Part shown: positions 5,477 through 31,829 of the stretch, one piece after another
Layout of the letters: the number at the start of each line of letters is the position of its first letter
Position numbering within the stretch: the first letter of the stretch is position 1
IMG/VR virus record: IMGVR_UViG_3300032284_000952
Span: 1-34,846 of that record
Strand: one strand, 5' to 3'
Length of the DNA stretch: 34,846 nucleotides
Source: a virus
Notes under the pieces: model-generated
Databases searched by the model: none
Seen by the model: only the letters and a program-made list of their open reading frames with translations
What the model was told of the DNA's origin: nothing
Program-made: the position numbers and the translations under genes

Positions 5477-5832
5477 CTTGGTTTTGTTCCTGTAACTTGT
5501 TGAATACGTTCTGCCGACTTAGCAACGATATTTAGTTTAGCCTCACAGTAGACAGGGCTTGGATTTTGTTTATTATGTAATTCATCAACAATGGTAAACA
5601 AGTCACTATTTAATTTATTCTGTGCATCATTATGTGGTATGTATTGAGAATAATTTTTCAACTCTCTTGCTTCGTTATACAATGCATTGATAGTATCTGC
5701 ATCGCATTTTTTAGATTCTGCTAATGTTCTAACATGCACAACATATTGGTATTCTGTGCTATCAAAGTTTGCCATAATCAACGCACAACCATTTAGTGCA
5801 AGAATTGCACATACTGCCAATATTCTTTTCAT
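5473..5832 (-). CDS. Outer-membrane-type lipoprotein
   Basis: A 119-aa predicted lipoprotein. The N-terminus MKRILAVCAILALNGC is a lipoprotein signal with lipobox LNGC; Cys 16 would be acylated. The mature part is helical with several cysteines (KKCDADT, PVYCEAK). A longer in-frame start 30 bases upstream would put a polar extension before the signal, so I chose ATG 5832, which overlaps the o-spanin TGA (ATGA) and has GAGG seven bases upstream. Directly following the o-spanin, it is a second lipoprotein in the cassette. It could be an additional spanin partner or an envelope protein that excludes other phages; I cannot tell which. Confidence 0.75.
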   Translation of the reverse strand: MKRILAVCAILALNGCALIMANFDSTEYQYVVHVRTLAESKKCDADTINALYNEARELKNYSQYIPHNDAQNKLNSDLFTIVDELHNKQNPSPVYCEAKLNIVAKSAERIQQVTGTKPR

Positions 5833-6128
5833 TTGTTTGCCTCTTGTTGGTCTTTGATCCATTTTTGTAGTGCTTCTAGTCTATTCGATATCTTGTAATA
5901 CATTTCATAATTCTCTGTAATCGTTTCTTCAATCGTTGAGAATTTGACTTCACCTTCCGGTAGTGTTTTTAGTTTCGGTGGTGGTACCATTGTTTCCGGT
6001 GCTGGTGTCGGGAACGGTACCTTGACTAAAGCCGGCGGTTGCTGAAAGGTTGTGCAGGCTGATAAAAGACTTAGGAATAACGCAAGTGTCATCATCCTTA
6101 GTGCTGATTTGTTTTTGAATCTCCACAT
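5829..6128 (-). CDS. o-spanin (Rz1-like lipoprotein), nested in the i-spanin gene
   Basis: A 99-aa predicted outer-membrane lipoprotein that would link with the i-spanin to disrupt the outer membrane. The signal is MWRFKNKSALRMM, then TLALFLSLLSAC with lipobox LSAC (Cys 25). A proline-rich mature segment follows (PPALVKVPFPTPAPETMVPPP), the hallmark of Rz1 proteins, and a helical C-terminus ends QEANK. ATG 6128 has GGAG seven bases upstream; the alternative start 21 bases earlier has no better site. About 179 bases lie inside the i-spanin gene in another frame, the arrangement of lambda Rz/Rz1. The spanin role is inferred from features and position; no homology search was run. Confidence 0.8.
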   Translation of the reverse strand: MWRFKNKSALRMMTLALFLSLLSACTTFQQPPALVKVPFPTPAPETMVPPPKLKTLPEGEVKFSTIEETITENYEMYYKISNRLEALQKWIKDQQEANK

Positions 6129-6465
6129 AATTATTCTCCACGTTTGCATCTTTTGCTTCTAAAAATTTAACAACATTTTTTGTTACTGTTACTTGTTTGG
6201 TTACAATCTTTTCTACAATCTTTTCTGCTTCTGCTTTACCATTAATCAATGCATCTTGTCTTCCATCAATATAACAACCTGCACCGAACAAAATAAACGC
6301 AATGATTTGTATTGGTATTCTATAGAAAATAGGAATAAAAAACGATAGTAATTTTTCTGCAACGTAAAGTGCAACACCTGCACCAATTACAAACAAAGGT
6401 ACCCATGTAGGTAACTCTGTTAGTATCCAATCAATTGTAAAAAAATGCAATATGTAATCAAACAT
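5950..6465 (-). CDS. i-spanin (Rz-like inner-membrane protein)
   Basis: A 171-aa predicted inner-membrane component of the spanin complex. Two hydrophobic segments are visible near residues 20-48 (WVPLFVIGAGVALYVAEKLL) and 52-68 (QIIAFILFGAGCYI). A charged helical periplasmic part follows (GKAEAEKIVEKIVTKQVTV...), and the C-terminus is a low-complexity Thr/Asn/Gly tail. Classic Rz has one N-terminal segment, so the double segment is unusual and one stretch may be peripheral. The o-spanin gene begins inside it in a different frame, and the low-complexity C-terminus falls in the doubly coded part. No clear ribosome site precedes ATG 6465; coupling to the preceding gene, two bases away, is likely. 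Confidence 0.75.
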   Translation of the reverse strand: MFDYILHFFTIDWILTELPTWVPLFVIGAGVALYVAEKLLSFFIPIFYRIPIQIIAFILFGAGCYIDGRQDALINGKAEAEKIVEKIVTKQVTVTKNVVKFLEAKDANVENNYVEIQKQISTKDDDTCVIPKSFISLHNLSATAGFSQGTVPDTSTGNNGTTTETKNTTGR

Positions 6466-6466
6466 T

Positions 6467-6709
6467 TTATACTAATACTAGTCTAGTATCACCTTCCGTT
6501 TTTTCTACTTTAACCCAACCATCATTGTTAAATTTATATCCTTCTCTTTGTTTAACTGAAACGATAACATGGTCAATTTTTTCTGCTATCCATCTTGCTA
6601 AACTATAATTATCTAATCCTGAAACTCTGAAGAAACCTACATTAGCGGCTACTTCCATTTCGACTTTCAATTGAAAGTCATTTTCAATTAAATCTTTAAC
6701 TTCTCTCAA
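6467..6709 (-). CDS. Hypothetical protein, TTG start
   Basis: An 80-aa soluble protein of unknown function. The N-terminus is a helix rich in acidic and hydrophobic residues (VKDLIENDFQLKVEMEV); the C-terminus is mixed (KFNNDGWVKVEKTEGDTRLVLV), suggesting a small alpha/beta fold. The start is TTG 6709, whose last two bases overlap the upstream stop (TTGA). AGGAAA lies about eleven bases before it. The preceding gene ends exactly there, so it depends on re-initiating ribosomes. It separates the capsid-protein region from the lysis cassette. Confidence 0.65.
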   Translation of the reverse strand: MREVKDLIENDFQLKVEMEVAANVGFFRVSGLDNYSLARWIAEKIDHVIVSVKQREGYKFNNDGWVKVEKTEGDTRLVLV

Positions 6710-7071
6710 TTTGGTGATTTCCTTGCAGTCATAAAATATTTTTTCTTTTTCTTTTTCATATCTACTGCTGTAGCACTTTGAGCATCAGTACCACTTTGTG
6801 GACCAGTTACATTAGTTGGTCCGGCAACAGAGGCTGCCCCACCACCTCCGCCTCCAGCCATTTCTCTAAACTGTTTGAATGTCTTTTTAACTTCTTCTTT
6901 TGTTAATCTATCTAATGCACGTTCAACACCTTTCTGGCGTTTTGGTTCTAATGTTTGATACATGTTCATAGGTTTATTGCCATGTTTTTTTCTATGGTCA
7001 TCACCTACTTTAGATAGATACCTTTCGGCTTTATCTTTGCTTATTTCATCAATCATTTTAATAGTTTTCAT
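6706..7071 (-). CDS. Single-module Lys/Glu-rich protein related to the giant repeat proteins
   Basis: A 121-aa basic protein. I chose ATG 7071 because it overlaps the upstream TGA as ATGA; three codons of alternative start lie before it. It opens MKTIKMIDEISKDKAERYLSKV, and a second block is KGVERALDRLTKEEVKK. Both blocks recur in the large neighbours (e.g. IDEISKELAGKYL and KGINKAVDKLSKEDVE in the gene at 10841-12427), so this is one free-standing copy of a shared module. A poly-Gly run and low-complexity Thr/Ala segment follow, then poly-Lys. The N-terminal M-K-T-x5-D-E also resembles the capsid-targeting pattern discussed for its neighbours. The function is unknown; a DNA-associated head protein is an inference. 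Confidence 0.7.
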   Translation of the reverse strand: MKTIKMIDEISKDKAERYLSKVGDDHRKKHGNKPMNMYQTLEPKRQKGVERALDRLTKEEVKKTFKQFREMAGGGGGGAASVAGPTNVTGPQSGTDAQSATAVDMKKKKKKYFMTARKSPN

Positions 7072-7607
7072 CTGCATTTCCATTTTCTAAGTGCAAGTGC
7101 TTTTCTTGTTGGTTCACCATTTGGTTTCTTCATGGCACCTTTCATACCACCCATTCTAGCACAGAATGATTTTCTGCGTTTAGCCGCTTTGCTACCAGGT
7201 TTGACTTTGCCTGTAACTGCCTTCTTCAACTTAGAACCAGGATTCTCTCTACGATATGATGCAATACCTTTTGCATTTAGACCACCTGTTTCACTCTTAC
7301 CTTCTTTTCTACGCCATGCGGCAGTTTCAAATAATTCTTCGTCTGAAACATCTTCAAGATTTTCCCAAAGAACATCTGGATCAATGTTGCTTTCTTCTGC
7401 AATATCATCAACTACTTCTTCGAGAATATCAAACAATTCTTCTGCATCATATTGCTCATAGAATTCAACTTCTTCGGGTACACAATTAGGAACTTTTCTA
7501 CCGTTTTTCATTTTCATACCAACGGCGGTATATCCTGTCCAACAAGCATTTTTAAGACTTCCTGTTGATTGTTTTACTTCGGTTGTAAATTGTCTGAATG
7601 ATTTCAT
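7068..7607 (-). CDS. DUF6321-type phage protein with possible capsid-targeting N-terminus
   Basis: A 179-aa protein of three parts. The N-terminus MKSFRQFTTE matches the ten-residue T4 capsid-targeting pattern with Glu 10. The segment with ACWTGYTAVGMK and VPNCVPEE (about 20-47) is one I associate from memory with T4-like cyanophage proteins. An acidic helix (FDILEEVVDDIAEES) links to a strongly basic C-terminal domain (GSKAAKRRKSFCARMGGMKG ... ALRKWKC), which resembles DUF6321. The basic Cys-containing domain could bind DNA. GAGGG lies just upstream of ATG 7607. I infer a head-packaged DNA-binding protein; the domain has no established activity that I know of. Confidence 0.8.
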   Translation of the reverse strand: MKSFRQFTTEVKQSTGSLKNACWTGYTAVGMKMKNGRKVPNCVPEEVEFYEQYDAEELFDILEEVVDDIAEESNIDPDVLWENLEDVSDEELFETAAWRRKEGKSETGGLNAKGIASYRRENPGSKLKKAVTGKVKPGSKAAKRRKSFCARMGGMKGAMKKPNGEPTRKALALRKWKCR

Positions 7608-7614: not shown

Positions 7615-8001
7615 TCATATGTTCCTTAAAATTTCGGCTACTTTCATATCTATAGGAATTTCATCAGTCTTGATTACTTTTCCATTAATCGATATTGGTG
7701 TATTTGGCATCGAACTCAGGAATACTAAGAATGTCTTTAGAATATCATAATCTCTTTCATCAATTCTAAAGAACAAAATTTTTGCTGAGGCTTCTGCGCC
7801 AAACACATTATTTAAACAAACCAAATGATTGAAAATCAATCGTTCTTTCAATACCTTTGTTGCTTTGTATCGTCTAAACAATCTCTTTAAATACTTAGTA
7901 CGTTTCAAATCACCTTCGAACTCACTCATAATACAATGTGGTGATTCATAGGCTTTCATAGCGTAGATAATGAAGTTGTCATCATTCAAATCATCAATCA
8001 T
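7615..8001 (-). CDS. Conserved T4-like phage protein of unknown function
   Basis: A 128-aa soluble protein. The block SPHCIMSEFEGDLKRTKYLKRLFRRY (read in two parts: SPHCIMSEFEGDL and KRTKYLKRLFRRY) near residues 20-45, followed by KERLIFNHLVCLNNVFG, is a pattern I recall from hypothetical proteins in T4-like cyanophages. It is mostly helical and basic in the first half, so nucleic-acid contact is possible. No signal or membrane segment is present. The leader is A-rich without a Shine-Dalgarno, and the preceding gene ends nine bases upstream, so translation is probably coupled. Function not established. Confidence 0.8.
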   Translation of the reverse strand: MIDDLNDDNFIIYAMKAYESPHCIMSEFEGDLKRTKYLKRLFRRYKATKVLKERLIFNHLVCLNNVFGAEASAKILFFRIDERDYDILKTFLVFLSSMPNTPISINGKVIKTDEIPIDMKVAEILRNI

Positions 8002-8009: not shown

Positions 8010-8471
8010 TTATTCTTCTATATCGTCATCGTCCATATCATCATCATCTAATACATCACCTAATTGGTCTTCATCTAAAATAGATGCTGTACAATCGTAC
8101 AAACCTTTTTCATTTTGGTCATATATGAAATAAAAATAATATTCGTGTTCAACACCATCAGTATATGAAGTCACAACACCATCTAATGTAGCGCCATGTT
8201 TATCACCATATTGACTGATGGCTATAACAAGTTCACCTTCTAGTTCGTTCGTTATTCTAGTTTTAGGTAATGTGACGCCATAATGTTCCAAGGTCTTTCT
8301 GGCTTCATCAAACCCTTCCATTGGACTATACCATGTATGACTAGCAACCATCAATGCAAGATTTCTATTAATCTCATTTCTGGTTCTAACTTCATCAATG
8401 TTGTTCCAATACTTATTGACGGAGACCACAGGTACTCCGTCTTCAGCAACGAATTCACGAAATGTTAACAT
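8010..8471 (-). CDS. Small acidic-tailed protein with capsid-targeting-like N-terminus
   Basis: A 153-aa protein. Start ATG 8471 shares one base with the upstream stop (TAATG); an in-frame ATG 27 bases earlier would add residues that spoil a clean motif. From this start it reads MLTFREFVAE, which closely matches the T4 internal-protein targeting peptide MKTYQEFIAE (Glu 10, Phe 7, Ala 9 identical in place). The middle contains a beta-rich stretch (GVEHEYYFYFIYDQNEKG). The C-terminus is a very acidic run (DVLDDDDMDDDDIEE), like a DNA mimic or a scaffold tail. Function unknown; a packaged head protein is an inference. Confidence 0.75.
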   Translation of the reverse strand: MLTFREFVAEDGVPVVSVNKYWNNIDEVRTRNEINRNLALMVASHTWYSPMEGFDEARKTLEHYGVTLPKTRITNELEGELVIAISQYGDKHGATLDGVVTSYTDGVEHEYYFYFIYDQNEKGLYDCTASILDEDQLGDVLDDDDMDDDDIEE

Positions 8472-9094
8472 TATACGCCCGTGAATGCAGTACCCCAAGA
8501 GGTATTGCCAGAGAATGTATTAGATGCAACTGGATTTGCAAGTGCAACTAATGTTTCACGAATATAGCGTACTGTACCATCGCTGTTAGTTTTCTTTTGA
8601 ACGTGAGCCCAACCTTGTGATACACCACCAGCACCAATTTGAGTATTCGCTAAACGAGTTGCTGTAACTAAAACAGTATCCTTGTTGTATGTTGTTTCAA
8701 CTGGTTTGTTTGCATTATAAGCAATTGCTTTATCAAACTCAACACCATATCCAGCAGACACAGTATTAAACAAATTTTGTGCTAATGTTACTGTATTGCC
8801 GCTAATTGAAGCAACGGTTGTGTTTGAAAAGAACATACCTGGATAACCATTACCTGCTGTACCTTGAGCAACAGGTGACGAATTTCCTTGTGATAGGAAA
8901 TACACATATTGACCAGTAGCAACACCAACGTTGGCAACATTATTACCTGCACCGTCATTGTATGCAACTTGAATAATGTTGTTACCTGATGTATTACCAG
9001 TTAGAACTGTAAATTGTAAAACTTCTCTTGTTTGACGTTCAGCATCCCATTTTGGTTTTAGGTTTGGTGCGTCAGTATTTGACCATGTTGGCAT
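8471..9094 (-). CDS. Probable virion structural protein
   Basis: A 207-aa Gly/Asn/Thr/Val-rich beta-type protein. It starts MPTWSNTDAPNLKPKWDAER and ends with the block GWAHVQKKTNSDGTVRYIRE plus ASNTFSGNTSWGTAFTGV. I recall proteins of this general design in structural sections of T4-like marine phages, but no name is secure. It has no signal peptide, no cysteine and no membrane segment, and is rich in short repeats such as G-N-T-x-x-A and GNNVANVGVATGQ, typical of secreted or assembled beta proteins. GGAG is nine bases before the ATG. A late-promoter-like AATAAATA lies 33 bases upstream, consistent with late expression. Confidence 0.75.
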   Translation of the reverse strand: MPTWSNTDAPNLKPKWDAERQTREVLQFTVLTGNTSGNNIIQVAYNDGAGNNVANVGVATGQYVYFLSQGNSSPVAQGTAGNGYPGMFFSNTTVASISGNTVTLAQNLFNTVSAGYGVEFDKAIAYNANKPVETTYNKDTVLVTATRLANTQIGAGGVSQGWAHVQKKTNSDGTVRYIRETLVALANPVASNTFSGNTSWGTAFTGV

Positions 9095-9136: not shown

Positions 9137-10840
9137 TTATTTTTCTTGTCCTTTGATACCATCTTTTTTGTCATCCTTCTTCTTATCTTTGTCATCTTTC
9201 TTAGTGATATCAGGTTGACCGGGACGATTTCTCATCATTGGATCAATTTCTATCGTATCACGAGGAGTACCTGTTTCAGTTTTACCACCAGATAAGATTG
9301 AACGAGCGGATGGTTTCTTTTCACCAGCATTTTCTTCTTTGCCATCATTCTTTTCTAACTTAGGTTGTTTACCAGTTGGTTTTCCACCTTTGTCATCTTT
9401 TTCATGGTCATAGGTTTCTTCACTCATTTTTTTTTTATGTTTATTGAAGATTCCTTTAACCATCATAGCCGCATTAGATACATGTTCATTGAACTGTTCT
9501 TCTGTCATTTCTTCTTTTACATTATGTGATGTATGTCTTTTATCCTTAACTGTACCTAATAGATTATGTTTTTTACGATAGTGTAATACAGTAGCGGCAT
9601 CATTAACTTGGTCAAGATATTTACTTTCAGAACTTGGACTATGGTTCTTCATTGCTTTTGCGGCTTCACCAGCATCTTTCATGATGTAGCGTAATGCTTC
9701 ATCTGACTTGCTATGATATTCATGACCTTTCAAAGGCATTTGTGAACGATTATAATTTTCAATCAAATCACCATCAGGTTCATATGAATTAGCCAATTTA
9801 CCCATCATAGTTTCATTTTTCTTATTAGATGCATATTCAGGATAGTTCTTTTCAAATTCTTCACGATCCTTTTTTTGCTTTGCCAACATATCTTCTAATC
9901 GTTTTGCGCCTGCATCCATATCGTAGCCTGCTTTTTTCATACTACGTTTGAATTTTTCATGTGCAGATAGTTTTTGATATGCTTCATTATTAATCTCAAT
10001 TTTGTGAGATTTGAAGTCACCTTCTTTACCTAGAGGCTCATCTATTTGATGTTTAACACGACCTCTTAGCATATCTTTAGTTTGTTTTTTGTCATCAACT
10101 TTTTCGTTAACTACGTCTTCTTTCATGCGGTTCATTTTCCAAGTTTTGAACTTGCTTGACTGTGCATGTTTTTGTAAGTCGCTCTTGCCAACGTATTTTG
10201 GTTCCATACCTAATGATGATAGATAGTCACCTAATGATGATTCATCAATGTCCTTTTCTTCTTTATTCATAGCAGTCCTAATATCTTTAGTTGTATTTGC
10301 AATCTGTTTACCGGTAGCCTTTGTAATATTCATCCAACGGTCAGTTGATTGTTTATATTTACCTTTAGCACTCAAGTCATCAGCAGACTTTCTAGCCTTC
10401 TCTTTATAACGACCTAATAACTCATTACTCACTTCATCAATTACTTCTTCTGTCTTAGCAGAAGCCATTCTTGCATATGGATCCATCGGATTGTTGATAT
10501 CTTTTTTAGTCTTCATCTTACCTTTTGGATCAAGTGCATTGTCATCAATTTTAAAGCCACCATCATCCATAGCAGTATCAGGTTGATTCTTATACTCAAC
10601 CAGTTCTTCTTTTCTGATAATTTCTTCTACCATTTTTGATGATGTGGCTTGCATCACTTTCATCCAGTTTTCACCATACTTTGCTCTGAACTCCTTCTCT
10701 CTTTCTTTAAGGTCGTCCATCACTTCTTCACGCTTTTTCTTTTGCTTAGGCGTAAAGTCTTTGGTGTCAACTCGCAACAATTCTTCATCATCCTCTTTTT
10801 TGGATTCAAGCACTTGTTGAAGTTTTGCTTTAAAATTCAT
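9137..10840 (-). CDS. Giant Lys/Glu-rich repeat protein A (possible internal head protein)
   Basis: A 567-aa very hydrophilic protein with almost no cysteine, low in aromatics. It is a string of helical modules: EEVIDEVSNELLGRYKEKARK (about 131-151) followed by the basic KQSTDRWMNITKATGKQ, then EEKDIDESSLGDYLSS (about 194-209), and later VKEEMTEEQFNEHVSNAAM. These share the K/E-E-x-I/L-D-E linker and Leu-x-x-Tyr helix of the next gene. The C-terminal 100 residues are a poly-Lys/Asp/Gly low-complexity tail ending in GQEK. ATG 10840 directly abuts the upstream stop, with AAAGGTGAG just before. It is not a known enzyme. I infer a scaffold or ejected internal head protein from composition and neighbours. 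Confidence 0.8.
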   Translation of the reverse strand: MNFKAKLQQVLESKKEDDEELLRVDTKDFTPKQKKKREEVMDDLKEREKEFRAKYGENWMKVMQATSSKMVEEIIRKEELVEYKNQPDTAMDDGGFKIDDNALDPKGKMKTKKDINNPMDPYARMASAKTEEVIDEVSNELLGRYKEKARKSADDLSAKGKYKQSTDRWMNITKATGKQIANTTKDIRTAMNKEEKDIDESSLGDYLSSLGMEPKYVGKSDLQKHAQSSKFKTWKMNRMKEDVVNEKVDDKKQTKDMLRGRVKHQIDEPLGKEGDFKSHKIEINNEAYQKLSAHEKFKRSMKKAGYDMDAGAKRLEDMLAKQKKDREEFEKNYPEYASNKKNETMMGKLANSYEPDGDLIENYNRSQMPLKGHEYHSKSDEALRYIMKDAGEAAKAMKNHSPSSESKYLDQVNDAATVLHYRKKHNLLGTVKDKRHTSHNVKEEMTEEQFNEHVSNAAMMVKGIFNKHKKKMSEETYDHEKDDKGGKPTGKQPKLEKNDGKEENAGEKKPSARSILSGGKTETGTPRDTIEIDPMMRNRPGQPDITKKDDKDKKKDDKKDGIKGQEK

Positions 10841-12427
10841 TTACTCACCTTTTGCTTGTTTAGTTGCAACGGCATACATTACTGATTTGCCTTTCTTTTC
10901 ACCATAACGTTTTTTGAAGTCTTTCAATTTTGGTTTCATTGCCATTACGTTATGTTCTTTTTTCTTTGTTTCTGCGGAAGACAATGAACGCTCATCGAGT
11001 TCTTCAATTTCTTCTTTTCTGATTCCAAGTTTATCTACACCACCACGATGTCCAAACATACTATCTACTGCTCTTGCGGCTTTTAATTCTGATTGTGTTG
11101 CACCCGCTTTTCTTGCGGCTTCTGCATGTTTAGGATCACCAGACTTAGCATACTTTGCTAATAGTTCTTTTCTTGTGCCACCTTGGTTTTTTGGATTATA
11201 ATCTGTAACACCAGTAGTTTCATCTAACTCAACTTCTTCTTTCATTTTGATGTTTTTTACAGGCTCATGTTTTTCAACAGCAGATAGTTTGTAATTCTTA
11301 TATGCATCTGTTCTTAACAAATCATGTGCTTGAGAAACTGCATCTTCGTCATTCTTAGCAGTTAACAAAGCCATGCTTGCCCATTTGTTTGTAGTTGGAT
11401 CATCAAAGTGAGCCGCATGAGTAATGTTTGCTTCATCTAATTCAAATTCTTCTTTTTTCATCATAGCATTCTGTTTCACTTTTCTAAGTGCAGAATTCAC
11501 ACCTGGGATTCTGGATTTCCCATCCTTACCTTGAAAATTTTGGTGCCCTGCTTTCTTCACATATGAACTCAATGCTTTTGTTGATAATTCTACTAGTGTA
11601 TTTTGTTCTTGTTCAACTTCTTCTTTCATATCTACACCAGCCGCTTTCATAAACTTCATATGGTCAAAACGTGGGTTTTGTTGTTTGAAGATTCCAGCAT
11701 GATGTAATGCTAGTTCGTGTCTTTTCTTCGCATCAGGATGTGCTTTGATAATATCTGCAACTTGTTGGAAATGTTTGCGTGATACTGCTTCATCCAATTC
11801 AACATCTTCAATATCTTCTTTATAGTAATCTGGTTTCTTATATAAAGAACTGCTTTTGCTTCTAGCCAATGCTCTATGTACAGAGGTTGCATGTTTTCCC
11901 ATTGTTTCAATGTCAGGATACTTTGATTTACCTTCACCTGTTTTATATTTGTTTGCACCTTTACCGTGTGGTGCAGTCAAATATTTACCGGCAAGTTCTT
12001 TAGAGATTTCATCAATTTGCTCAACATCTTCTTTTGATAGTTTATCAACTGCTTTATTGATACCTTTCTCACGCTTTGCACTAGTCTTTGCAAGAGCCAT
12101 TTTATCTTTGCTATCACCACGCTTGTCATATTTCATGCCGTGTTTGAAGTCAGCCATGCCACCAGCATAGTGTGCTTTCTTAATATAGTTACCAAGAGTT
12201 TTCTTCGACAACTCATCTAACTCTTCCGCTTCTTCTTTCTTAACAGTTACTGGCATTGTTTTGCCACCTAACTTGAAAGTTTTTTTGCCATCTTTTGCGG
12301 CGGCATGTGCGGCGGCATGTAAGCCTGTTTCTTTTACATCATCTTCTGCAAAAGATTTTTCTTTCATAACTTTTTTAACTGCTTCAACCAATGACTGGTC
12401 TACGTTGTGTCCGAATTTGGAAAACAT
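10841..12427 (-). CDS. Giant Lys/Glu-rich repeat protein B (possible internal head protein)
   Basis: A 528-aa charged protein built from mini-modules separated by acidic linkers of the type K-E-E-[VIF]-x-x-[LI]-D-E. Copies include EEAEELDELSKKTLGNYIKKA (two parts, EEAEELDELS and KKTLGNYIKKA), DVEQIDEISKELAGKYL, DIEDVELDEAVSRKHF, KKEEFELDEANITHAAHF, KEEVELDETTGVTD and KEEIEELDERSLS. Between linkers lie small basic helical pieces with no recognised enzyme motif. The C-terminus FKKRYGEKKGKSVMYAVATKQAKGE is strongly basic. Most linkers contain L-D-E or I-D-E, which fit the I/L-x-E cleavage rule of T4 prohead protease. GGAG precedes ATG 12427, which overlaps the upstream stop by one base (TAATG). 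Confidence 0.8.
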   Translation of the reverse strand: MFSKFGHNVDQSLVEAVKKVMKEKSFAEDDVKETGLHAAAHAAAKDGKKTFKLGGKTMPVTVKKEEAEELDELSKKTLGNYIKKAHYAGGMADFKHGMKYDKRGDSKDKMALAKTSAKREKGINKAVDKLSKEDVEQIDEISKELAGKYLTAPHGKGANKYKTGEGKSKYPDIETMGKHATSVHRALARSKSSSLYKKPDYYKEDIEDVELDEAVSRKHFQQVADIIKAHPDAKKRHELALHHAGIFKQQNPRFDHMKFMKAAGVDMKEEVEQEQNTLVELSTKALSSYVKKAGHQNFQGKDGKSRIPGVNSALRKVKQNAMMKKEEFELDEANITHAAHFDDPTTNKWASMALLTAKNDEDAVSQAHDLLRTDAYKNYKLSAVEKHEPVKNIKMKEEVELDETTGVTDYNPKNQGGTRKELLAKYAKSGDPKHAEAARKAGATQSELKAARAVDSMFGHRGGVDKLGIRKEEIEELDERSLSSAETKKKEHNVMAMKPKLKDFKKRYGEKKGKSVMYAVATKQAKGE

Positions 12428-14364
12428 TATTTTGCTCCTTTATTGTTTTTCTTCTTTTTAATTTCGATTCCGATATTTCTATCTTTATCTTTGTATGATT
12501 GCATTGGTTCACTATTAGTAGCACCATGATATCCACCAGACACACCCATATCAGATGCAGGACTATCTATTGCTTCTCTGAATGATTTGAATGATTTTGG
12601 TTTTGTTTCTTCACCATATGTAGTATTACCAAGACCACTCATTGGATATACAGTACCAGAACCTCTTGTAGCAAACTCAGGACCTAGACCAGTAACTTTT
12701 ATTCTCTTAGTTGGTTCATTTGGTACAGAAGCCGCCTTCTTCTTTACTTTTTCGTTGTCTTTTTGGAAGTTGGGCTCTTTTGGCTCTGGGATTTTGGTGA
12801 GGGTTGGACCGTCTTCTTTGATGCTCTCGGTTTCTTCGTAGGTGCGGAAGGTGTAACTTCCTGGGTTACCTGGGACGTCACCGTACTTGATTTCGTCTTT
12901 TTTACCGGCGATTCTACCGAGTTGACAGGTTGGGCAGTTGTTGTCTGCGATGAGTTTTCCGTGTCCACAGGTGTCTTTGGCTTTAGTTTTAGTAGGTATG
13001 CTATCTTCTTCAACATTTGTTTCCTCTCCTCTAAGGGATTGTTTTAGTTTATCAATTGATTTTTTATGAATCTCTGAATCTTGTCGCATCTTATCTCTAC
13101 GAGATTTGATTAGATTCTTCAACGTATCTTTTTGATTTGTTGAATGAGGTCCAATTTCGAATAGTTTTGCAAATTCATTGTTAAAGTTTTCAACAACAAC
13201 TTTTGCTTTTTGACCATAAAACAATTTAGTAGTCATTAGCAGTTGGCTGATTTCTTCTTCAATTCTTGCAATATCAAATACATCTGCTTTATCAAAATCG
13301 ATTGTATTATCAAAACGAATGAACAAATCAAATGCTTCGTTATATACTTTTGCATTTTCTTGTGATTTAATCCACTTGTCTTGACGAACATCTTCGACCA
13401 TCATTCTGGTCAACTTTTGATTTCTACTTGAACTAGTTTCATTAGTTGTATCTACGAAAATCATCATTGTTTCGTAACCAAGTTCTTCTAGTTCTTCTTT
13501 AACATATTTGATACGGTCAATATCGTTTGCAGAACCATTGATAATTAAAGGCTTGTGTTGTTTGATAGCATTACGTCTTTCGTCTTTAGTGCTTTCTGAT
13601 AATTTGTGTTTATCTGCTAAAAATTCAAATGCTTGTATTGTGTTAATTTCTACTGCTCTGCCTTCTGCAATAGCATCACGAATAACAGTATCTTTTCCAC
13701 TACCAGGACCACCTGTAATGAATACTGCTTTATATAATCCATGCTGTACATCTTCATTGATACCCATGCCTTTGCGTAAATCACGGAATAATTCTTTGCT
13801 ATGTTTCTCTGGAACGTGGTGAGGTATACCTTGCTTAAATGAATTGAAGTCATTATTCTTTGCATGTTCACGCATCTTGGATGCAGACATACCTTCTACA
13901 CCTTCTGCATCTGGATCACGTTGACCAGCAGACTTGACTTCAATCTTTTTGAAGTTGTATAGTTTGCCTTCACCTTCACCATTATATTGTTCTAGTTTCT
14001 TTTTGAATTCGTCTACTCTATCCGAACCAGCAACCATGATTAGATGGTCGTGTCCCATCTTATGCAATCTTGCGGCATGTTGCAAAAATGTTGGTTCTTC
14101 TTTACTTGAATTTTCAATATTCGTATTTGGAAATAAACGTTTTGCATGTTTCACTTTAGTTGCTACATCAAGTGGATCTTTCTTTGCATTTTGTGAATGT
14201 GAAAGAATAACATGATGTGGTGCATTATGGTCTGCGGCAATTTGTTTTACTTTATTGACCAACTTCTCGTGACCAATGGTAGGAGGATTCATACGACCGA
14301 ACGCCATCACCACCGGATGGTGCGTTTTTGTATCCTCATGCAGTTTTTCTAAAAATGTTTTCAT
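12427..14364 (-). CDS. Fusion: NMNAT/cytidylyltransferase-like + P-loop kinase + zinc ribbon
   Basis: A 645-aa multi-domain protein. MKTFLEKLHE (1-10) fits the capsid-targeting pattern. Residues 17-200 form a HIGH-superfamily nucleotidyltransferase: AFGRMNPPTIGHEKL (21-35) and the late motif MSASKMREH (159-167). Residues 210-380 hold a kinase-like P-loop domain with Walker A GGPGSGKDT (218-226), similar to zeta-toxin/AAA_33 kinases. Then comes a charged linker, a CGH...CPTC zinc-ribbon-like piece (Cys 466, His 468, Cys 477, Cys 480), and a Gly/Pro-rich tail with KSFKSFREAI near 590-599. NMNAT plus kinase recalls NadR of NAD salvage; an RNA-end kinase role is an alternative. Substrates are unproven. 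Residues about 461-538 use unusual codons (see findings). Confidence 0.82.
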   Translation of the reverse strand: MKTFLEKLHEDTKTHHPVVMAFGRMNPPTIGHEKLVNKVKQIAADHNAPHHVILSHSQNAKKDPLDVATKVKHAKRLFPNTNIENSSKEEPTFLQHAARLHKMGHDHLIMVAGSDRVDEFKKKLEQYNGEGEGKLYNFKKIEVKSAGQRDPDAEGVEGMSASKMREHAKNNDFNSFKQGIPHHVPEKHSKELFRDLRKGMGINEDVQHGLYKAVFITGGPGSGKDTVIRDAIAEGRAVEINTIQAFEFLADKHKLSESTKDERRNAIKQHKPLIINGSANDIDRIKYVKEELEELGYETMMIFVDTTNETSSSRNQKLTRMMVEDVRQDKWIKSQENAKVYNEAFDLFIRFDNTIDFDKADVFDIARIEEEISQLLMTTKLFYGQKAKVVVENFNNEFAKLFEIGPHSTNQKDTLKNLIKSRRDKMRQDSEIHKKSIDKLKQSLRGEETNVEEDSIPTKTKAKDTCGHGKLIADNNCPTCQLGRIAGKKDEIKYGDVPGNPGSYTFRTYEETESIKEDGPTLTKIPEPKEPNFQKDNEKVKKKAASVPNEPTKRIKVTGLGPEFATRGSGTVYPMSGLGNTTYGEETKPKSFKSFREAIDSPASDMGVSGGYHGATNSEPMQSYKDKDRNIGIEIKKKKNNKGAK

Positions 14365-15552
14365 TTAAAAGTTTCTCATTCCTGCAAAGTTTCTTCTACT
14401 GAACTTTGCTCTATCTACTAGTTTATCGATTTGTCCTTTATGATGGAATACATATCCTTCACCTTCTGCTTTTTCGCCATGGTGAGTATGTTCAAAATCT
14501 TCATGCTGATTCATTGTATCTAACAATACACCTTTTGCTTTTTGTAGATGACCATGCATTTTAAGCAAATTATTATAATGTTTCTTATTTGCTTCAATCG
14601 CATTCAAATGAGTTTTTAATTCTTCTTTCTTGGCGTTTTTACCTTTTTCACTTTTTAATTTTTCAATCATCTTCTCATACTTAGTTTCTAAGTGTTTCTT
14701 GAAGTTTTCGTGATTTGGTGTTTCACCAGTTCTGACTGTATGGTTTATATATGTTTCCAAATGACCACCCACACCTTGATGCATGTCTGTACCTGCGTAC
14801 ATCTCACCATGTTCATCGTGGATTTTCTTTGCGGCTTTCATATGTTTTTCAAACTCTTTTTGTGCTTCGTTTGAAAAATGAACTTTTGATGTATCTTTTC
14901 TTGGGTCAACAGTAAATACATCTGGATGCTCTTTGAAGTTTTCACGGTCAACATTATGGTCAGCCTTCATGCTGGATGAATCCTCACCATTATATTTTAG
15001 ATGAGTTACAACACCAATCTTAGCGGCTTTTGCTTTCTTTGCTAAGTTGCCATGTGCATGATATGTAAGACCTGAAGGATTAGGATGAAATGATGCAACA
15101 CCATTTTTGTGTTCAATATCATCATCTGAGAACATCATATCGCCTTGATAGACACCTTGCTTAGGTGCAGTCTTCTTCAAGTGCTTTAATGCTTGTTTTA
15201 GTTTGTTTGCTAAACCTGGTGCATGACCATGGTTCTTATCTACATCTGCTTCGTTATAGTTGATTTTTGGTTCTTTGTTGAATGCAGATTTTGATGCAAC
15301 AAAGAATTTACCAGTTTTAGGATGATGTCCATATACTAATGCAGGTGAGCCATCATACTTAGTAGTTAATTCTGATGTATTTTTGCCAGACTTAATATGG
15401 TCTGCGATAGCATTTAAAGAAGACATAGCATGTTCGGTTCCTTTGGAACCAGTCTGCAAGGCACGATCCTCAATATGGGTTAAATGCTTAACCTGATGAG
15501 ATTCACCCTCACCTTCTTTTTGCTCTCGTAGATATGTTTTGAATGATTGCAT
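14365..15552 (-). CDS. RNA-ligase-like nucleotidyltransferase (DUF6267-type) with capsid-targeting-like N-terminus
   Basis: A 395-aa protein with signatures of the covalent nucleotidyltransferase/ligase superfamily: motif I K-Y-D-G-S-P (K65, candidate AMP-accepting lysine), a motif-III-like VYQGDMMF (134-141), motif IV EGYVFH (365-370) and a motif V lysine in DKLVDRAKF (377). Between III and IV lies a helical Lys/His-rich insertion (about 225-350). The longer ORF begins with TTG at 15579; I prefer ATG 15552 because it gives MQSFKTYLRE, matching the ten-residue capsid-targeting pattern, although no clear Shine-Dalgarno is seen. It directly precedes the kinase/nucleotidyltransferase gene (TAA then ATG), so the pair are probably partners. 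Ligase activity is an inference from motifs. Confidence 0.78.
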   Translation of the reverse strand: MQSFKTYLREQKEGEGESHQVKHLTHIEDRALQTGSKGTEHAMSSLNAIADHIKSGKNTSELTTKYDGSPALVYGHHPKTGKFFVASKSAFNKEPKINYNEADVDKNHGHAPGLANKLKQALKHLKKTAPKQGVYQGDMMFSDDDIEHKNGVASFHPNPSGLTYHAHGNLAKKAKAAKIGVVTHLKYNGEDSSSMKADHNVDRENFKEHPDVFTVDPRKDTSKVHFSNEAQKEFEKHMKAAKKIHDEHGEMYAGTDMHQGVGGHLETYINHTVRTGETPNHENFKKHLETKYEKMIEKLKSEKGKNAKKEELKTHLNAIEANKKHYNNLLKMHGHLQKAKGVLLDTMNQHEDFEHTHHGEKAEGEGYVFHHKGQIDKLVDRAKFSRRNFAGMRNF

Positions 15553-15600
15553 TTTTTTATTATTTTTATTTGAAAACAACGCTCTGTGGTTGCCATAACA

Positions 15601-16053
15601 CTATTTAGCATTTTTTTTAAGTTGCATTACATATTTGCTACAAACGCCCATGCATTTTTCATCCCAAGTCGATATGTCACTATTCCATTCTGGCTGTACG
15701 CATATACTATTTTCAGTCAAAGGCTTACCTGGATATGTCCAAATAAACCCATTTGATGTTACTGTATAGTCATCATTTTGATGCCAAAAAAACTCAATGA
15801 ATGGTATGATGTGACGAACTCGGTTCAATGCTTCTAAATTCTTACAATGAAGCCATAGATTAGTTCTGCTTAAAAACTCTCTGTCCACACGATATTGTGG
15901 CTCATTGTGTCCTAGGAACCATTTGTCATCTTTAAACCATACATCAACTTCAGCATTAAACCCTTCATTAAGGGCTTCCATAATAGTGTCTGGTCGATTC
16001 TCTCTTGATTCATCAGGACCGTCTATAAGCCCTCTATGTGCAATATATATCAT
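15601..16053 (-). CDS. GDPD / phosphodiesterase-like protein
   Basis: A 150-aa short member of the glycerophosphodiester phosphodiesterase-like TIM-barrel group. The N-terminus IAHRGLIDG carries the H-R-G motif (6-8), ENRPDTIMEAL matches the E-N-x-x-x-x the family uses after it, and FNAEVDVWFKDDKWFLGHN supplies the E-x-D metal pair (E35, D37) and the second His (H49). Full GDPDs are about 250 aa, so this is a reduced barrel. It may remodel glycerol-phosphate-type lipids or surface polymers. Its ATG overlaps the upstream glycosyltransferase stop (ATGA), with GGAG before it. It is the last gene of the carbohydrate island. The substrate is unknown. Confidence 0.75.
   Translation of the reverse strand: MIYIAHRGLIDGPDESRENRPDTIMEALNEGFNAEVDVWFKDDKWFLGHNEPQYRVDREFLSRTNLWLHCKNLEALNRVRHIIPFIEFFWHQNDDYTVTSNGFIWTYPGKPLTENSICVQPEWNSDISTWDEKCMGVCSKYVMQLKKNAK
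15602..15609 (-). promoter_or_regulatory. Possible late promoter box GCTAAATA
   Basis: GCTAAATA on the minus strand retains TAAATA of the T4 late consensus TATAAATA. It lies about 50 bases upstream of the ligase-like gene start at 15552 and overlaps the end of the GDPD-like gene. It would separate expression of the putative head proteins from the carbohydrate island. The match is weak. Confidence 0.25.
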
Positions 16054-16763
16054 TGATATTGCTCCTTAGGAACATACTCTCCTTTCGGTGTATGCATAAT
16101 CGTCTTAGAGATATTGAATTCTTCCCAAGGCAAACCTAGTTTTTTAATCCAGTGCGTTGATACCACATGAGGACAAAGCAGATTTGTTTCTTGGTAAATA
16201 TAAGGAAGATAATTTAATACCTTACAAAAATTGGTAACAAAATATGAATTACCAATCTGCATCATATCACCAGTACCTTGACCTAAATGGTTTCTGTGAC
16301 TTAATGTGTAGAATTTGCTAGGATGAAAATCTGGTAAATCTTCGTTATAAATCATATCTGGTCGCAAACGCAATACCAAGTCATATGTTCTACCTGTTCT
16401 CAGCATAAAGTCTTCCATCATCAACATACCTTGTCCCATTTTGTACATCATCGAAATGATATTTTTTGGTACATGATGGAAATTTGTATAGACTGATGCT
16501 CTATCTTCAAAATTTTCTTTGTGGTCTTCAAAATTCTCAACTCGCATTTCAGTTGCTTTAAATGCATCTGCTACTGCTTGAAAATCAATCTCTGGTGTAC
16601 CTTCAACAAAGCCAGCCTTGCTATGTGGATCCCAATATGCTTGGTCACGCCATGTATGAATGAATACATCTGGCTTGTAACGTTCTAAAATTCTCTCATT
16701 GAAGTTAGGTGCTACTTGGTCCCAACACCTCATGTGTCCTGTTAATACAACTGCAACTCTCAT
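16050..16763 (-). CDS. Glycosyltransferase-like protein
   Basis: A 237-aa protein. The N-terminus MRVAVVLTGHMRCWDQVAPNF and FIHTWRDQ are typical of a phage/virus glycosyltransferase-like family in which LVLRLRPDMIYN (near 131-142) supplies an R-x-D metal-binding element. I recall this as an uncharacterised, GT-A-like family; no sugar is assignable. There is no signal peptide or membrane helix, so it acts in the cytoplasm. AGAGG precedes ATG 16763. It overlaps the downstream GDPD-like gene by four bases (ATGA) and lies two bases after the FkbM methyltransferase gene, in a coupled operon. Probably it helps decorate phage or host surface glycans. Confidence 0.78.
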   Translation of the reverse strand: MRVAVVLTGHMRCWDQVAPNFNERILERYKPDVFIHTWRDQAYWDPHSKAGFVEGTPEIDFQAVADAFKATEMRVENFEDHKENFEDRASVYTNFHHVPKNIISMMYKMGQGMLMMEDFMLRTGRTYDLVLRLRPDMIYNEDLPDFHPSKFYTLSHRNHLGQGTGDMMQIGNSYFVTNFCKVLNYLPYIYQETNLLCPHVVSTHWIKKLGLPWEEFNISKTIMHTPKGEYVPKEQYQ

Positions 16764-16765
16764 AA

Positions 16766-17359
16766 TTAAATCCTCTTAAAATGTATGTCTGCTTCTTTAC
16801 CAACAGCATCGGGAACTAGTGTACATGAAAATCCTTTGCTTTCTAACCAAGGCGTAATTACACCAACATGATTATCTGTATTCTTATATAAATCTACTGT
16901 ATATGCACCTTCACACTTACCTTCTTTGATATCTGCAATTCTATCACCTAATGATTTCAATACATTGAAGTCGTTTCCTTGTGCATCAATCCAAAGATAA
17001 TCAACTTGACCTATGTTGTAGTCATTCATAAAAGTATCCAATCTAGTTGTTGGTACTTTATATGATGTTGCAACATTAAAATGACCTTCTCTACCTTCCC
17101 ATTGTTGATAGATATCATCACTAAAGTTATATAGAGATGAGCACCCTACATCTGTTGCGACATTAAACATTTTAAATGTTATCTCAATATCGATTGCCAT
17201 AGGCATCAAATGAAACCTATCAATACCTCTAAACTTATTATACAAGTGATTTACCAACTCAGGTACAGGTTCAAATGCATAAACAATTGTATTTGGATCA
17301 CTTAAAAAGTTTTCTGTATCTGTGCCTGTGTTTGCACCAACTTCAATTACTGTTGTCAC
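16766..17359 (-). CDS. FkbM-family methyltransferase
   Basis: A 197-aa SAM-dependent methyltransferase of the FkbM type, which O-methylates sugars or polyketides. VIEVGANTGTD (about 4-14) is the glycine-rich SAM loop, VYAFEPVPELV is motif II with the acidic Glu, and WIDAQGNDFNVLKSL fits the FkbM IDVQG-E-x-x-VLKG block. An in-frame GTG at 17410 would lengthen the protein by 17 aa, but I chose GTG 17359 because it overlaps the upstream TGA as GTGA and has GGAG eight bases before it. The protein then begins directly before the SAM loop, slightly short for the family. Confidence 0.85.
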   Translation of the reverse strand: MTTVIEVGANTGTDTENFLSDPNTIVYAFEPVPELVNHLYNKFRGIDRFHLMPMAIDIEITFKMFNVATDVGCSSLYNFSDDIYQQWEGREGHFNVATSYKVPTTRLDTFMNDYNIGQVDYLWIDAQGNDFNVLKSLGDRIADIKEGKCEGAYTVDLYKNTDNHVGVITPWLESKGFSCTLVPDAVGKEADIHFKRI

Positions 17360-18723
17360 TTGTGATGCTCCAAAAAGTAGTTCAAATCTTCGGGTGTTCC
17401 AATACCCCACATCTTTTCAATATTCTTTGTACGAATTTTCTTGCCGTCTGCAATTGCTTCATTGAACACAGGACAAACATAGAATTCATTGTTAACACGA
17501 ATATTCTTGTTAATCATTTGTTCAGCATACTTTACATAATCTGAACCATGTTTCCAATAGTATATACCAACAGTAGCAACATTAGAGATTGGATTCTTTT
17601 CTGCAACTTCCGATACAAATCCATCTGAATTAAGTTTTGCGAAAGACCATTTTGGATGAGTTGATTCAAATGTGACAATCCCACCATCAATAGTGTCAGC
17701 AGTAAAAGCATATAAACATTCATTAGAGTTCCATTCTACAAATTGGTCAGAATTAGCCATCAACAATGGTTCATCATTATTAATGAGTTCTTTTGCAAGT
17801 AGTGTAGTACATGCGGCACCTTCTGTCAATCCATCTACTTGAATGATATCGCATCCTGGTGCGATTAAGTTCAATAGTTGTTTTAGATTATACTTCTCAT
17901 AGTGTTCTTTCTGAACAATATAAATGAAATGTGCATCTACGTTTAAGTTTTCAGTCACAACTTGAATCATTGGTTTACCATCAACTTCAATCAATGGCTT
18001 AGGAAATGTATAGCCTGCTTGTGCAAATCTGCTACCAGCACCAGCCATTGGAATTAAAACGTTCATCTTTTTATTTCTCCATGGTATATTTTTCTTTAAT
18101 GCGCCATCTGCAAATTCATTACAGTAGTCTATGAATGATGGGTTTAGGTCGTATGCATCTTTAACTGGATACAAATTAGCACCAGAGTTAGTTGCACCTT
18201 CTCTACCAATATGACTGTCTTCTACAATGATGGTATCTTTAGGTAATGCATTCAATGCAACCATACATTTCCAGTACATCTCAGGAAATGGTTTTGCTTG
18301 AAACACATCTTCATTACTAACATAGTAATCTACCATACCAAGAATGCTCATTGATTCAAGTGAGATACGAACTGTTTCACGAATGCTATTTGATGCTACT
18401 GCAATTTTCCATCCTTTTGCTTTCAACTGCTTGATGATGTTAAATGCATGTTGATTCTTTGGTGCATTAGGAATCAACTTAAATGTTGCATCTTGTTTTG
18501 CTCTCCAAATTGCATTGTAGTGTTCTCTAGCCAGACCTTTATCTGTACTGAGCATTTCGAGTTTCTTTGTTGTGTTTAGACCATCATATTTCGATAGGTG
18601 TTCTTCACGAGAAATTACATATTGCTCATTAATTTTGCGTAGTGCATCATTCAATGCATCATAATGTAATTCTCTCGAATCAATCAATACACCATCAAGG
18701 TCAAAAATAACTAACTTGTTCAT
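17356..18723 (-). CDS. Fusion of HAD phosphatase and sugar nucleotidyltransferase
   Basis: A 455-aa bifunctional protein. Residues 1-215 are a HAD phosphatase of beta-phosphoglucomutase type: DLDGVLIDS (D8, D10), VASNS (109-113), K144 in QAKPFPEMY, and VEDSHIG (168-174). Residues 220-455 are a nucleotidyltransferase: NVLIPMAGAGSRF (221-233), then FPKPLIEV with the catalytic-type Lys, and a Rossmann-like middle. It ends EKMWGIGTPEDLNYFL, typical of the family. The pair would remove a phosphate from a sugar precursor and make the NDP-sugar for the glycosyltransferases encoded beside it. ATG 18723 overlaps the upstream stop (ATGA). An internal ATG at residue 220 (18066) has GGAG ten bases upstream, so the second domain may also be made alone. 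Confidence 0.87.
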   Translation of the reverse strand: MNKLVIFDLDGVLIDSRELHYDALNDALRKINEQYVISREEHLSKYDGLNTTKKLEMLSTDKGLAREHYNAIWRAKQDATFKLIPNAPKNQHAFNIIKQLKAKGWKIAVASNSIRETVRISLESMSILGMVDYYVSNEDVFQAKPFPEMYWKCMVALNALPKDTIIVEDSHIGREGATNSGANLYPVKDAYDLNPSFIDYCNEFADGALKKNIPWRNKKMNVLIPMAGAGSRFAQAGYTFPKPLIEVDGKPMIQVVTENLNVDAHFIYIVQKEHYEKYNLKQLLNLIAPGCDIIQVDGLTEGAACTTLLAKELINNDEPLLMANSDQFVEWNSNECLYAFTADTIDGGIVTFESTHPKWSFAKLNSDGFVSEVAEKNPISNVATVGIYYWKHGSDYVKYAEQMINKNIRVNNEFYVCPVFNEAIADGKKIRTKNIEKMWGIGTPEDLNYFLEHHK

Positions 18724-19586
18724 GTGATTTTAATAGTAACTATATCGTCTGAAATGACTTGTGTTGTTTTAGGAACTGTATCGTTAAAATTATTAAACAA
18801 TACAAACGGGTCGTATCCTTTTTGATGGTCAGGAATTGTGTGCAATTCAAATGCATTAATATTGTTTATGTATGATAGTAACCACAAGCCTTGGTCATCA
18901 TCAACAAGATTCATCTTTTGTAGAGCATTGAAACTTTCCCACATCATACGTTCCATATCTGCCCATTTATTTTTGTGTGCTACTACTTTTGCACCAAGAA
19001 TGTATACATCATTTTCAAGTACAACATCTTCAATTGGTTTACCATCGTATGGTTTGTAGTTGAACATATGAATTTTTTCTTCATCAAATTCATATTCCCA
19101 CTTTGCACTCTTTGGTATCTTTGTTGCATCTCTGCAATACCCAAAGTCAATCCAAGCAACCATATCATTTGTTGCTAGACCTTGTTTAATTGCTGTGTTA
19201 ACAAAATATGCTTTCAAGTCAGTCACAAGAACATAATCAGGATTCCAGTATTCAGGATTCTTAACTTGTTGTGGATGAACTCTGCTTTGAAAGTCAGGAT
19301 CCTTTTGTATTTTTTCAATCTTCATACGAATATCTTGCATTCGTACTTTGGGATCAAAAATAATCCATTTAGTTTTGTTTTGTTTTGTTAGCCGATGTTG
19401 TTTCAAACGCTCAATCATGTCTTCTGTAGTGACTATGATTAATTCATTATCTAATTTGGCTAGATGTGAGAATCGTTCGATGTAGATGTCTACTGAACGT
19501 TCTAGGTAATGAGGCAATCCTTTGTCTGGTGTCCAACCACCTCGACCTATATCAAAGAATGCTGTAACAATTGTAATATCTTTCAA
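18720..19586 (-). CDS. HtrL/YibB-like glycosyltransferase
   Basis: A 288-aa protein opening with ITIVTAFFDIGRGGW, the N-terminal block of the HtrL_YibB family (PF09612 from memory), proteins found in LPS and capsule loci. DYVLVTDLKAYFV (about 118-130) and VAWIDFGYCRD are consistent with a GT-A-like core with D-x-D-type acidic residues. No membrane segment is visible. The start is TTG 19586 with a good GAGGTG six bases before it, and it is the first gene of the coupled block that ends in the GDPD-like gene. A late-promoter-like CATAAATA lies 44 bases upstream. Its C-terminal tail SDDIVTIKIT resembles that of the neighbouring gene. Confidence 0.8.
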   Translation of the reverse strand: MKDITIVTAFFDIGRGGWTPDKGLPHYLERSVDIYIERFSHLAKLDNELIIVTTEDMIERLKQHRLTKQNKTKWIIFDPKVRMQDIRMKIEKIQKDPDFQSRVHPQQVKNPEYWNPDYVLVTDLKAYFVNTAIKQGLATNDMVAWIDFGYCRDATKIPKSAKWEYEFDEEKIHMFNYKPYDGKPIEDVVLENDVYILGAKVVAHKNKWADMERMMWESFNALQKMNLVDDDQGLWLLSYINNINAFELHTIPDHQKGYDPFVLFNNFNDTVPKTTQVISDDIVTIKIT

Positions 19587-19629
19587 ATCACACCTCGCAT
19601 ATTTAGTTTTTTACTTACTGTTGATTATG

Positions 19630-19637
19630 TATTTATG
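19630..19637 (-). promoter_or_regulatory. Putative late promoter box CATAAATA
   Basis: CATAAATA on the minus strand differs from T4 late TATAAATA at the first base only. It lies in the 57-base gap before the TTG start at 19586, the largest gap inside the carbohydrate island, so it probably drives the downstream block from HtrL-like to GDPD-like. Confidence 0.4.
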
Positions 19638-19643
19638 TCACTA

Positions 19644-29873: not shown

Positions 29874-29877
29874 ATAT

Positions 29878-29912: not shown

Positions 29913-29954
29913 CCTGTTATCTTTGCCATGTTTTAATAACAAAGAGAGGTAAAA

Positions 29955-31828: not shown

Positions 31829-31829
31829 A

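Follow-up and report, generated by a model that had tools for sequence, protein, structure and literature searches.

Two adjacent genes on the minus strand of the IMG/VR virus record IMGVR_UViG_3300032284_000952, here called A and B, appear to encode polyproteins of T4-type internal head proteins, which would be cut within the prohead, retained in the head, injected and active in the host; we give this reading a probability of roughly 0.75. The whole stretch analysed (34,846 bases, hereafter the window) is a fragment of a T4-like phage genome, with genes for a DNA polymerase, UvsX, a DnaB-type helicase, a primase, thymidylate synthase, NrdA, a holin and an endolysin. Comparison with related phages indicates that a prohead-protease motif has been selected at the borders of shuffled modules, in phages that carry both T4-type leaders and the protease. 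An initial annotation of the window had already suggested a polyprotein, and that suggestion is partly supported here.

The layout of A, B and a free-standing module elsewhere in the window is given below. The Greek module names were coined in this analysis, and the families were defined by hand-written regular expressions from the sequences at hand.

10841 to 12427, minus strand: ORF (open reading frame) A, a modular protein of 528 residues with a leader and about eight modules (eps-like, alpha, alpha-like, delta, alpha-like, gamma, theta, beta).
12383 to 12427, minus strand: A leader, residues 1-15 (MFSKFG...QSLVE), with an LxE site at its end; four relatives have N-termini like it, and the leader presumably serves in targeting.
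12212 to 12328, minus strand: A eps-like module, residues 34-72, after VKE, from the sequence and the eps family contexts.
12008 to 12211, minus strand: A alpha module 1, residues 73-140, after LDE, with a hidden Markov model (HMM) match over 73-130.
11789 to 12007, minus strand: A alpha-like module 2, residues 141-213, after IDE, from the sequence; absent from the HMM matches.
11621 to 11788, minus strand: A delta module, residues 214-269, after LDE, from family scans; per-residue model confidence (pLDDT) about 96-98 over most of the module.
11432 to 11587, minus strand: A alpha-like module 3, residues 281-332, after LVE, from the sequence.
11237 to 11431, minus strand: A gamma module, residues 333-397, after LDE, from family contexts.
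10991 to 11218, minus strand: A theta module, residues 404-479, after LDE, from architectures; pLDDT about 94 over 421-450.
10841 to 10990, minus strand: A beta module, residues 480-528, after LDE, with an HMM match over 480-525 and a family scan.
9137 to 10840, minus strand: ORF B, a modular protein of 567 residues with a conserved C-terminal part (YDHEK...GGKT).
10805 to 10840, minus strand: B leader, residues 1-12, ending VLE, from the sequence; putative role as in A.
10625 to 10804, minus strand: B beta-like module, residues 13-72, with an HMM match over 28-70 (60.7 bits).
10241 to 10432, minus strand: B alpha-like module, residues 137-200, after IDE, from the sequence; matches the freshwater Synechococcus phage BUCT-ZZ01.
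10103 to 10240, minus strand: B iota-like module, residues 201-246, after IDE, from the sequence and the iota family contexts.
6706 to 7083, minus strand: free-standing alpha module, with a 13-residue leader ending IDE, one module and a Gly-rich tail.

A contains six [IL]DE tripeptides against 0.30 expected from residue shuffling (none of 2000 shuffles had as many) and four KEE...[ILV]DE linkers against 0.003, whilst B contains three [IL]DE against 0.48 (p about 0.01). Together with one in the free-standing ORF, these are the ten or so linkers reported in the initial annotation, and they are far above shuffling. The two recurring parts that it described are likewise real, being the start of the alpha module ([IL]DE[LI]S-x-x-x-L-x-x-Y) and its end (K-G-[IV]-x-x-A-x-[DK]-[KR]-L). 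Its picture of giant proteins made of repeats has to be amended: neither protein is giant, and although parts recur there is no single repeat, most modules being unlike one another and A resembling B at E 0.001 only. The free-standing module is present, but its ORF, previously given as 6706-7071, extends to 7083; it matches A over the second recurring part (13/30 identities, E 4e-6). Finally, the L-D-E or I-D-E linker exists as described but belongs to a wider motif, [ILVM]-x-E with a strict Glu. The sites of this kind in A beyond LDE include LVE15, VKE33, MKE269, LVE280, MKE397 and IEE476. Each of its 13 [ILVM]xE sites falls either in the leader region or on the edge of a module, with none in the cores as drawn here, and cutting them all would give main pieces of 39, 68, 73, 56, 52, 65, 73 and 49 residues.

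Relatives were collected from viral contigs with A (3 loci) and B (42 loci) as queries, and further relatives by way of linker-free module cores (the best 80 of 94 for eps, 70 for delta and the best 80 of 555 confirmed for beta, whose scan had matched more than 600 stretches). Upstream of the module cores of eight unrelated families, [ILVM]xE was found in 336 of 365 distinct contexts, [ILVM]xD in 0 and neither in 29. By family, the motif precedes 33/33 alpha, 18/18 eta, 48/50 delta, 31/32 eps, 22/23 gamma, 68/70 iota, 44/45 DUF6321 and 72/94 beta cores. A first pass with a fixed 9-residue window, in which shuffled upstream stretches averaged between 6.7 and 14.1 in seven of the families (all but beta), scored eta at 0/18 and beta at 14/94, the site lying at distance 9; the final count uses a distance specific to each family, with offsets taken from the first-pass data. 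The middle residue varies (D, N, V, E, A, I and K in alpha; D, K, L and E in eps; T, S, E and others in gamma) and the Glu is strict. Therefore, the constraint is aliphatic-any-Glu and not acidic LDE.

The T4 prohead protease gp21 is described as cutting after L/I-x-E (PMC9026906), as the initial annotation had stated, and the same source reports that Asp at leader position 10 in T4 inhibits processing whilst still allowing targeting. Judged by sequence, the linker rule matches the gp21 rule, and Asp, which blocks T4 processing, never occurs in the linkers; a gp21 site with a strict Glu is what T4-type internal head proteins carry. An uncut docking motif, by which the proteins would be anchored to the shell or within the prohead core and the chains would work whole, is an improbable explanation of the same linkers. 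Flanking KEEVE is likewise common there and the residue after the site (P1') is mixed, both of which would suit docking, but the middle residue varies, Asp never replaces Glu, and docking gives no account of why the tripeptide is avoided within module cores.

This avoidance is pronounced. Distinct module cores contain 12 [ILVM]xE against 85.5 in shuffled cores, whereas [ILVM]xD stands at 96 against 96.8 and other third residues lie at 0.53 to 1.82 of expectation. In T4 gp22 the motif is instead enriched (21 vs 11.2 shuffled), as it is in the gp22-like proteins beside gp23 in two relatives (22 vs 13.9 and 21 vs 13.0), and the gp22 scaffold and other T4 core proteins are reported to be cut into many pieces by gp21 (PMC9026906). 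It is conceivable, though unlikely, that A and B are themselves elaborate scaffold or core proteins, cut so that the pieces leave the prohead to the DNA, with modules that have no role after assembly. Many-site cutting by gp21 is described for gp22, gp67 and gp68 of T4, cyanophages are reported to be without gp67 and gp68 (PMC2984593), and the model of A is partly disordered. However, a gp22-like protein is already separate and adjoins gp23 in two relatives, and sites dense throughout the chain, as in gp22, are not found here, where they avoid the cores. Moreover, the modules are conserved and partly well folded, occur in permuted order and are also found as single proteins behind leaders. The depletion in cores, set against the enrichment in gp22, therefore favours a polyprotein over a scaffold meant for destruction.

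The N-termini of proteins in these loci also point to the head. T4 ipII and ipIII start with MKTYQEFIAEA (NC_000866), and in the T4 leader targeting is ascribed mainly to residues 4 and 7 and processing to residues 8 and 10 (PMC9026906). The leader pattern [ST][FY]xx[FHLY][ILVMFT]xE lies near the start of 161 of 2033 ORFs in the fetched loci (0.4 when shuffled) and of 0/97 control ORFs around gp21/gp23. A split into module-bearing ORFs (68/437 with leaders) and others (93/1693) discriminates poorly, as the others include DUF6267 and cytidylyltransferase neighbours. When 214 starts were chosen by M-x-[ST]-[FY] only, 166 had I, L, V, M or F at position 8, whilst position 10 held Glu in 163 and Asp in 14; by the T4 result, processing is not expected in the last 14. 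In the window, T4-type leaders begin the listed ORFs 7068-7607, 8010-8498 and 14365-15579. The leaders of A and B differ, ending in LVE15 and VLE12 respectively, and can be called targeting leaders in a looser sense only. A module that stands behind an [IL]xE linker in a polyprotein can elsewhere come immediately after a leader, examples being short frames that carry eta or DUF6321; ORF 6706-7083 is laid out as leader-IDE-module, and a protein of Caulobacter phage Cr30 begins MRSKILAE and continues with an alpha module. Leader-like motifs also occur internally (11 in 318 modular proteins against 0.4 expected), which is what fusion of whole genes would leave.

All of these genes lie in one block, transcribed from the minus strand in the order DUF6267 (14365-15579), the cytidylyltransferase/NMNAT-like gene (12427-14364), A, B, 8471-9094, 8010-8498, 7615-8001, 7068-7607 (DUF6321) and 6706-7083. 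The members with leader-like starts, apart from those listed above, are as follows.

14365 to 15552, minus strand: DUF6267 protein; read from a Met within the listed ORF 14365-15579, it opens with the leader-like MQSFKTYLRE.
12427 to 14364, minus strand: cytidylyltransferase/NMNAT-like protein with a P-loop domain and leader-like start MKTFLEKLHE; homologues are found in cyanophage virions.
8010 to 8471, minus strand: ORF that opens with the T4-type leader MLTFREFVAE when read from a Met inside the listed ORF 8010-8498.
7068 to 7607, minus strand: ORF with T4-type leader MKSFRQFTTE, followed by a CWxGY module and DUF6321.

Across relatives the modules are shuffled at the linkers. Cutting 117 non-redundant ORFs with at least 2 linkers at [ILV]DE gave 483 segments (median 105 residues), the heads of which form 50 clusters of at least 2 members and 119 singletons. 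There are 64 architectures among 656 frames, counted with a small module set, and orders are permuted (eps-beta-theta-gamma and eps-theta-beta-gamma, eps-zeta and zeta-eps, delta-beta and beta-delta), with modules also found alone. The excess of [ILV]DE in linker-chosen ORFs (366 against 60.8 expected) is inflated, as these ORFs were selected by their linkers, but two counts from the same ORFs are free of this selection bias: 75 [ILV]NE against 30.2 expected and 33 [ILV]DD against 47.2. Conservation of the linkers and shuffling of modules at them, both looked to by the initial annotation as checks on its proposal, are thus borne out in relatives.

An EF-hand-like loop, DKNxNxKxDxxDF, recurs in the modular proteins (L009:6565-6615, L026:6422-6472, L027:6422-6472, L039:6884-6934 and L044:2612-2662); a calcium-binding injected piece would be odd. 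A delta-like domain is also present in a 1168-residue protein, gene 81 of Mycobacterium phage ScoobyDoobyDoo (L302), upstream of the portal gene. No [ILV]xE directly precedes that stretch, perhaps reflecting another protease, and this single case is not evidence alone.

An AlphaFold2 model of A was built from a 41-row alignment, few rows of which cover beta and eps; a 78-row alignment was set aside, having misplaced beta and eps fragments of low identity. In the model, confidence is high over delta, theta and beta, each a helical island (block means about 89-98), lower over the other modules and mostly below 60 in the stretches between modules, with a predicted template-modelling score (pTM) of 0.33. 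The predicted structure of A thus resembles beads on a string. A Foldseek search of BFVD superposed a 51-residue free-standing phage protein on one 50-residue stretch of A (template-modelling (TM) score by target 0.97, E 0.06). Below E 2 Foldseek returned nothing from the PDB, and below E 0.001 nothing from BFVD. Sequence searches of the PDB with A and with the delta and beta profiles gave nothing below E 0.07. Neither A nor B has a match at E 1e-3 in Pfam or PHROGs, and Pfam to E 1 adds weak matches below cut-off only; of ten proteins of relatives, eight are without a Pfam domain and two have DUF3008, one below and one above cut-off.

These searches bear on whether A and B could be ordinary polyvalent injected proteins, that is, multidomain effectors delivered whole, in which charged flexible spacers serve no particular purpose. 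Phages are known to encode polyvalent proteins of 2 to 15 domains, which are presumed to be packaged in virions (PMC5512222). However, several enzymatic or ParB, MuF or MPTase domains, the marks of such proteins, are absent by Pfam from A, B and the ten proteins of relatives, and a strict [ILVM]xE at module edges is unexpected of plain spacers. We regard this as very improbable, and turn back to A and B as polyproteins that would be cut in the prohead.

Neither gp21 nor gp23 was found within the window, so the protease of this phage has to be deduced from its relatives. Of 32 related contigs, 17 contain gp23, and the same 17 contain an S77 protease. In the first 14 contigs, most of the others being short, each is found in the same 2; in 18 larger ones, each is found in the same 15. 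The contigs with both include a near relative (G001) whose NrdA is 87% identical to that of the window over 487 residues. The relatives' gp23, the major capsid protein (MCP), has [LM]xE near the position of T4 Glu65 in 14/14 parsed sequences (LNE, LME, LHE, LYE, MFE and MGE, followed by varied residues); three further gp23 loci (L295, L298 and L299), in which the frame was not parsed, are outside this count. The alignment has many gaps and the tripeptide is offset from T4 Glu65 by a few columns, but it may be the MCP cut site.

Published proteomes place neighbouring and modular proteins in virions. In the cyanophage S-CREM2, the cytidylyltransferase gp154 was identified by 3 unique peptides and gp155, gp156 and gp160 by 5, 6 and 7 (PMC10665884, Table 3). 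The genes for gp154-gp156 and gp160 belong to one block, running from the cytidylyltransferase to the primase, and gp154 starts with MKNFSSFLTEADE. S-CREM2 gp160 has a CWxGY module after LEE and a PSAYA module after ISE, and matches a 1006-residue modular protein of P-TIM68 (80% over 45 residues and 66% over 44 residues), which also has an IDE-alpha module. In S-SCSM1, for which 45 virion proteins including NMNAT are reported from mass spectrometry (PMC9602691), virion proteins by label include gp91-gp93, and among the proteins so labelled are the NMNAT, which alone is a clear homologue of a window protein (42% identity over 185 residues to the window's NMNAT), a 520-residue protein following it and a 69-residue DUF3008 protein. 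Cytidylyltransferase is also reported in virions of S-SZBM1 and S-SM1 (PMC9146016, PMC3037559).

Two candidate relationships among S-SCSM1 virion proteins were dropped: homology of a 444-residue protein to DUF6267 was not supported on comparison, and the 69-residue protein, considered as a zeta-like module, proved to be DUF3008. The latter (L055:8010-8219) is the single-protein form of a module inside a modular protein at another locus (L012), by a weak Pfam match. Separately, S-CREM2 gp12, annotated as a CRISPR-Cas9 nuclease, has 28 unique peptides in the virion proteome (PMC10665884, Table 3).

Several observations weigh against cleavage into packaged modules. The published virion data are tryptic identifications, and a cleavage product is seen in none. 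The 520-residue virion protein of S-SCSM1 shares with A one KEEVELDE linker and no module. Three of the 18 large contigs (G022, G024 and G028) have linkers without gp23 or S77, although they may be incomplete; no Phage_Mu_F domain was found in the three. The motif is missing from 22/94 beta contexts, the contexts come from related phages, so that the counts overstate their independence, and residues as unlike as R, L, T, A, G and S occur at P1'. In B, several [ILVM]xE stand in no clear relation to modules. Lastly, the LDE sites at residues 70-72, 138-140 and 330-332 of A lie in predicted helices, which the protease would need to open.

If A and B are polyproteins of the kind proposed, they would enter the prohead core through their N-termini, where the S77 prohead protease, the gp21 homologue, would cleave each linker on the C-terminal side of the Glu in [ILVM]-x-E. 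Such cutting would free about eight modules from A and some five from B, roughly 40-90 residues each, and the freed modules would stay among the packaged DNA and enter the host with it. The same genome seems to hold one-module versions (6706-7083, 7068-7607 and 8010-8471), in which a leader ending xE is followed by one short protein, and the polyproteins probably arose by fusion of such one-module genes, leader and cut site included.

Whether the arrangement is general is, in our estimate, an even call: a large group of lake and sea T4-like phages may make their injected proteins as polyproteins, with a few genes giving dozens of different small head-borne effectors, and recombination that shuffles modules at the cut sites may vary the set of injected proteins with no need for further genes, leaders or promoters. 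The polyprotein reading would account for the shuffled, unannotated look of these proteins, and offers a key to them, in that an [ILVM]xE before a conserved block would mark the start of a likely packaged protein in these phages. Dozens of 'hypothetical' genes could then be split into units open to experiment, and counter-defence factors comparable to T4 IPI may be among these units; should the modules serve in anti-defence or host takeover, as T4 IPI does, every such locus would hold a collection of undescribed factors. Eukaryotic RNA viruses and retroviruses characteristically make polyproteins, and if the reading is true, a phage whose internal proteins are made as one chain and released in the prohead would be a clear parallel. 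Searches of the open-access PMC literature returned no description of a phage head polyprotein, of linker cleavage or of cyanophage targeting leaders.

Other features of the window concern the surroundings of the block. The P-loop of the NMNAT-like protein (12427-14364) gives weak Zeta_toxin/AAA matches; this protein has a Cys-rich stretch as well, and may be a fusion with a second enzyme. ORF 6706-7083 matches phrog_3286, a family without an assigned role, and short leader-bearing proteins with Gly-rich tails like its C-terminal half recur nearby in relatives (L013:10098-10316 and L208:6882-7114). Adjoining the endolysin and holin, the overlapping minus-strand frames 5829-6149 and 5950-6465 have the look of an Rz/Rz1-type spanin pair, with a lipoprotein-like start (LLSACTTF) inside the membrane-anchored frame. 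Between the helicase and the head-protein block, 16050-21232 holds glycosyltransferase-like, FkbM methyltransferase, HAD and nucleotidyltransferase genes. ARAGORN places 19 tRNA genes in 29791-34845, 17 of them in 32514-34845, and this block possibly extends past the end of the window.

Set beside known systems, A and B resemble several without coinciding with any. Polyvalent proteins likewise have many domains per chain, are mosaic and are thought to be packed in virions, but a large fraction of their domains are enzymatic and built-in zincin-like peptidases have been proposed to process them (PMC5512222), whereas A and B have small modules without known enzyme domains and head-protease sites. 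The T4 core proteins gp22, gp67 and gp68 are similarly described as single chains with many prohead-protease sites; in gp22 the sites are enriched along the chain, whereas here they avoid module cores. The ejection proteins of phiKZ and SPN3US are reported to be injected from the head and to lose one long propeptide to a gp21-type protease, which in phiKZ cuts at S/A-x-E; here processing is predicted and a string of products is proposed. The cytidylyltransferase/NMNAT of cyanophage virions shares a T4-like leader (MKSFLQFLKE in S-SCSM1, MKNFSSFLTE in S-CREM2) and a position upstream of modular genes; published passages on these proteins treat them as single proteins and propose NAD supply, whilst the module and cut-site analysis is made here. 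The closest likeness is to T4 IPI, IPII and IPIII, described as short, diverse proteins with the L/I-x-E rule and a leader that has an aromatic residue at 4 and often 7, an aliphatic one at 8 and Glu at 10. In T4 these internal proteins are encoded one per gene; here about eight modules stand in one chain, with a site before each.

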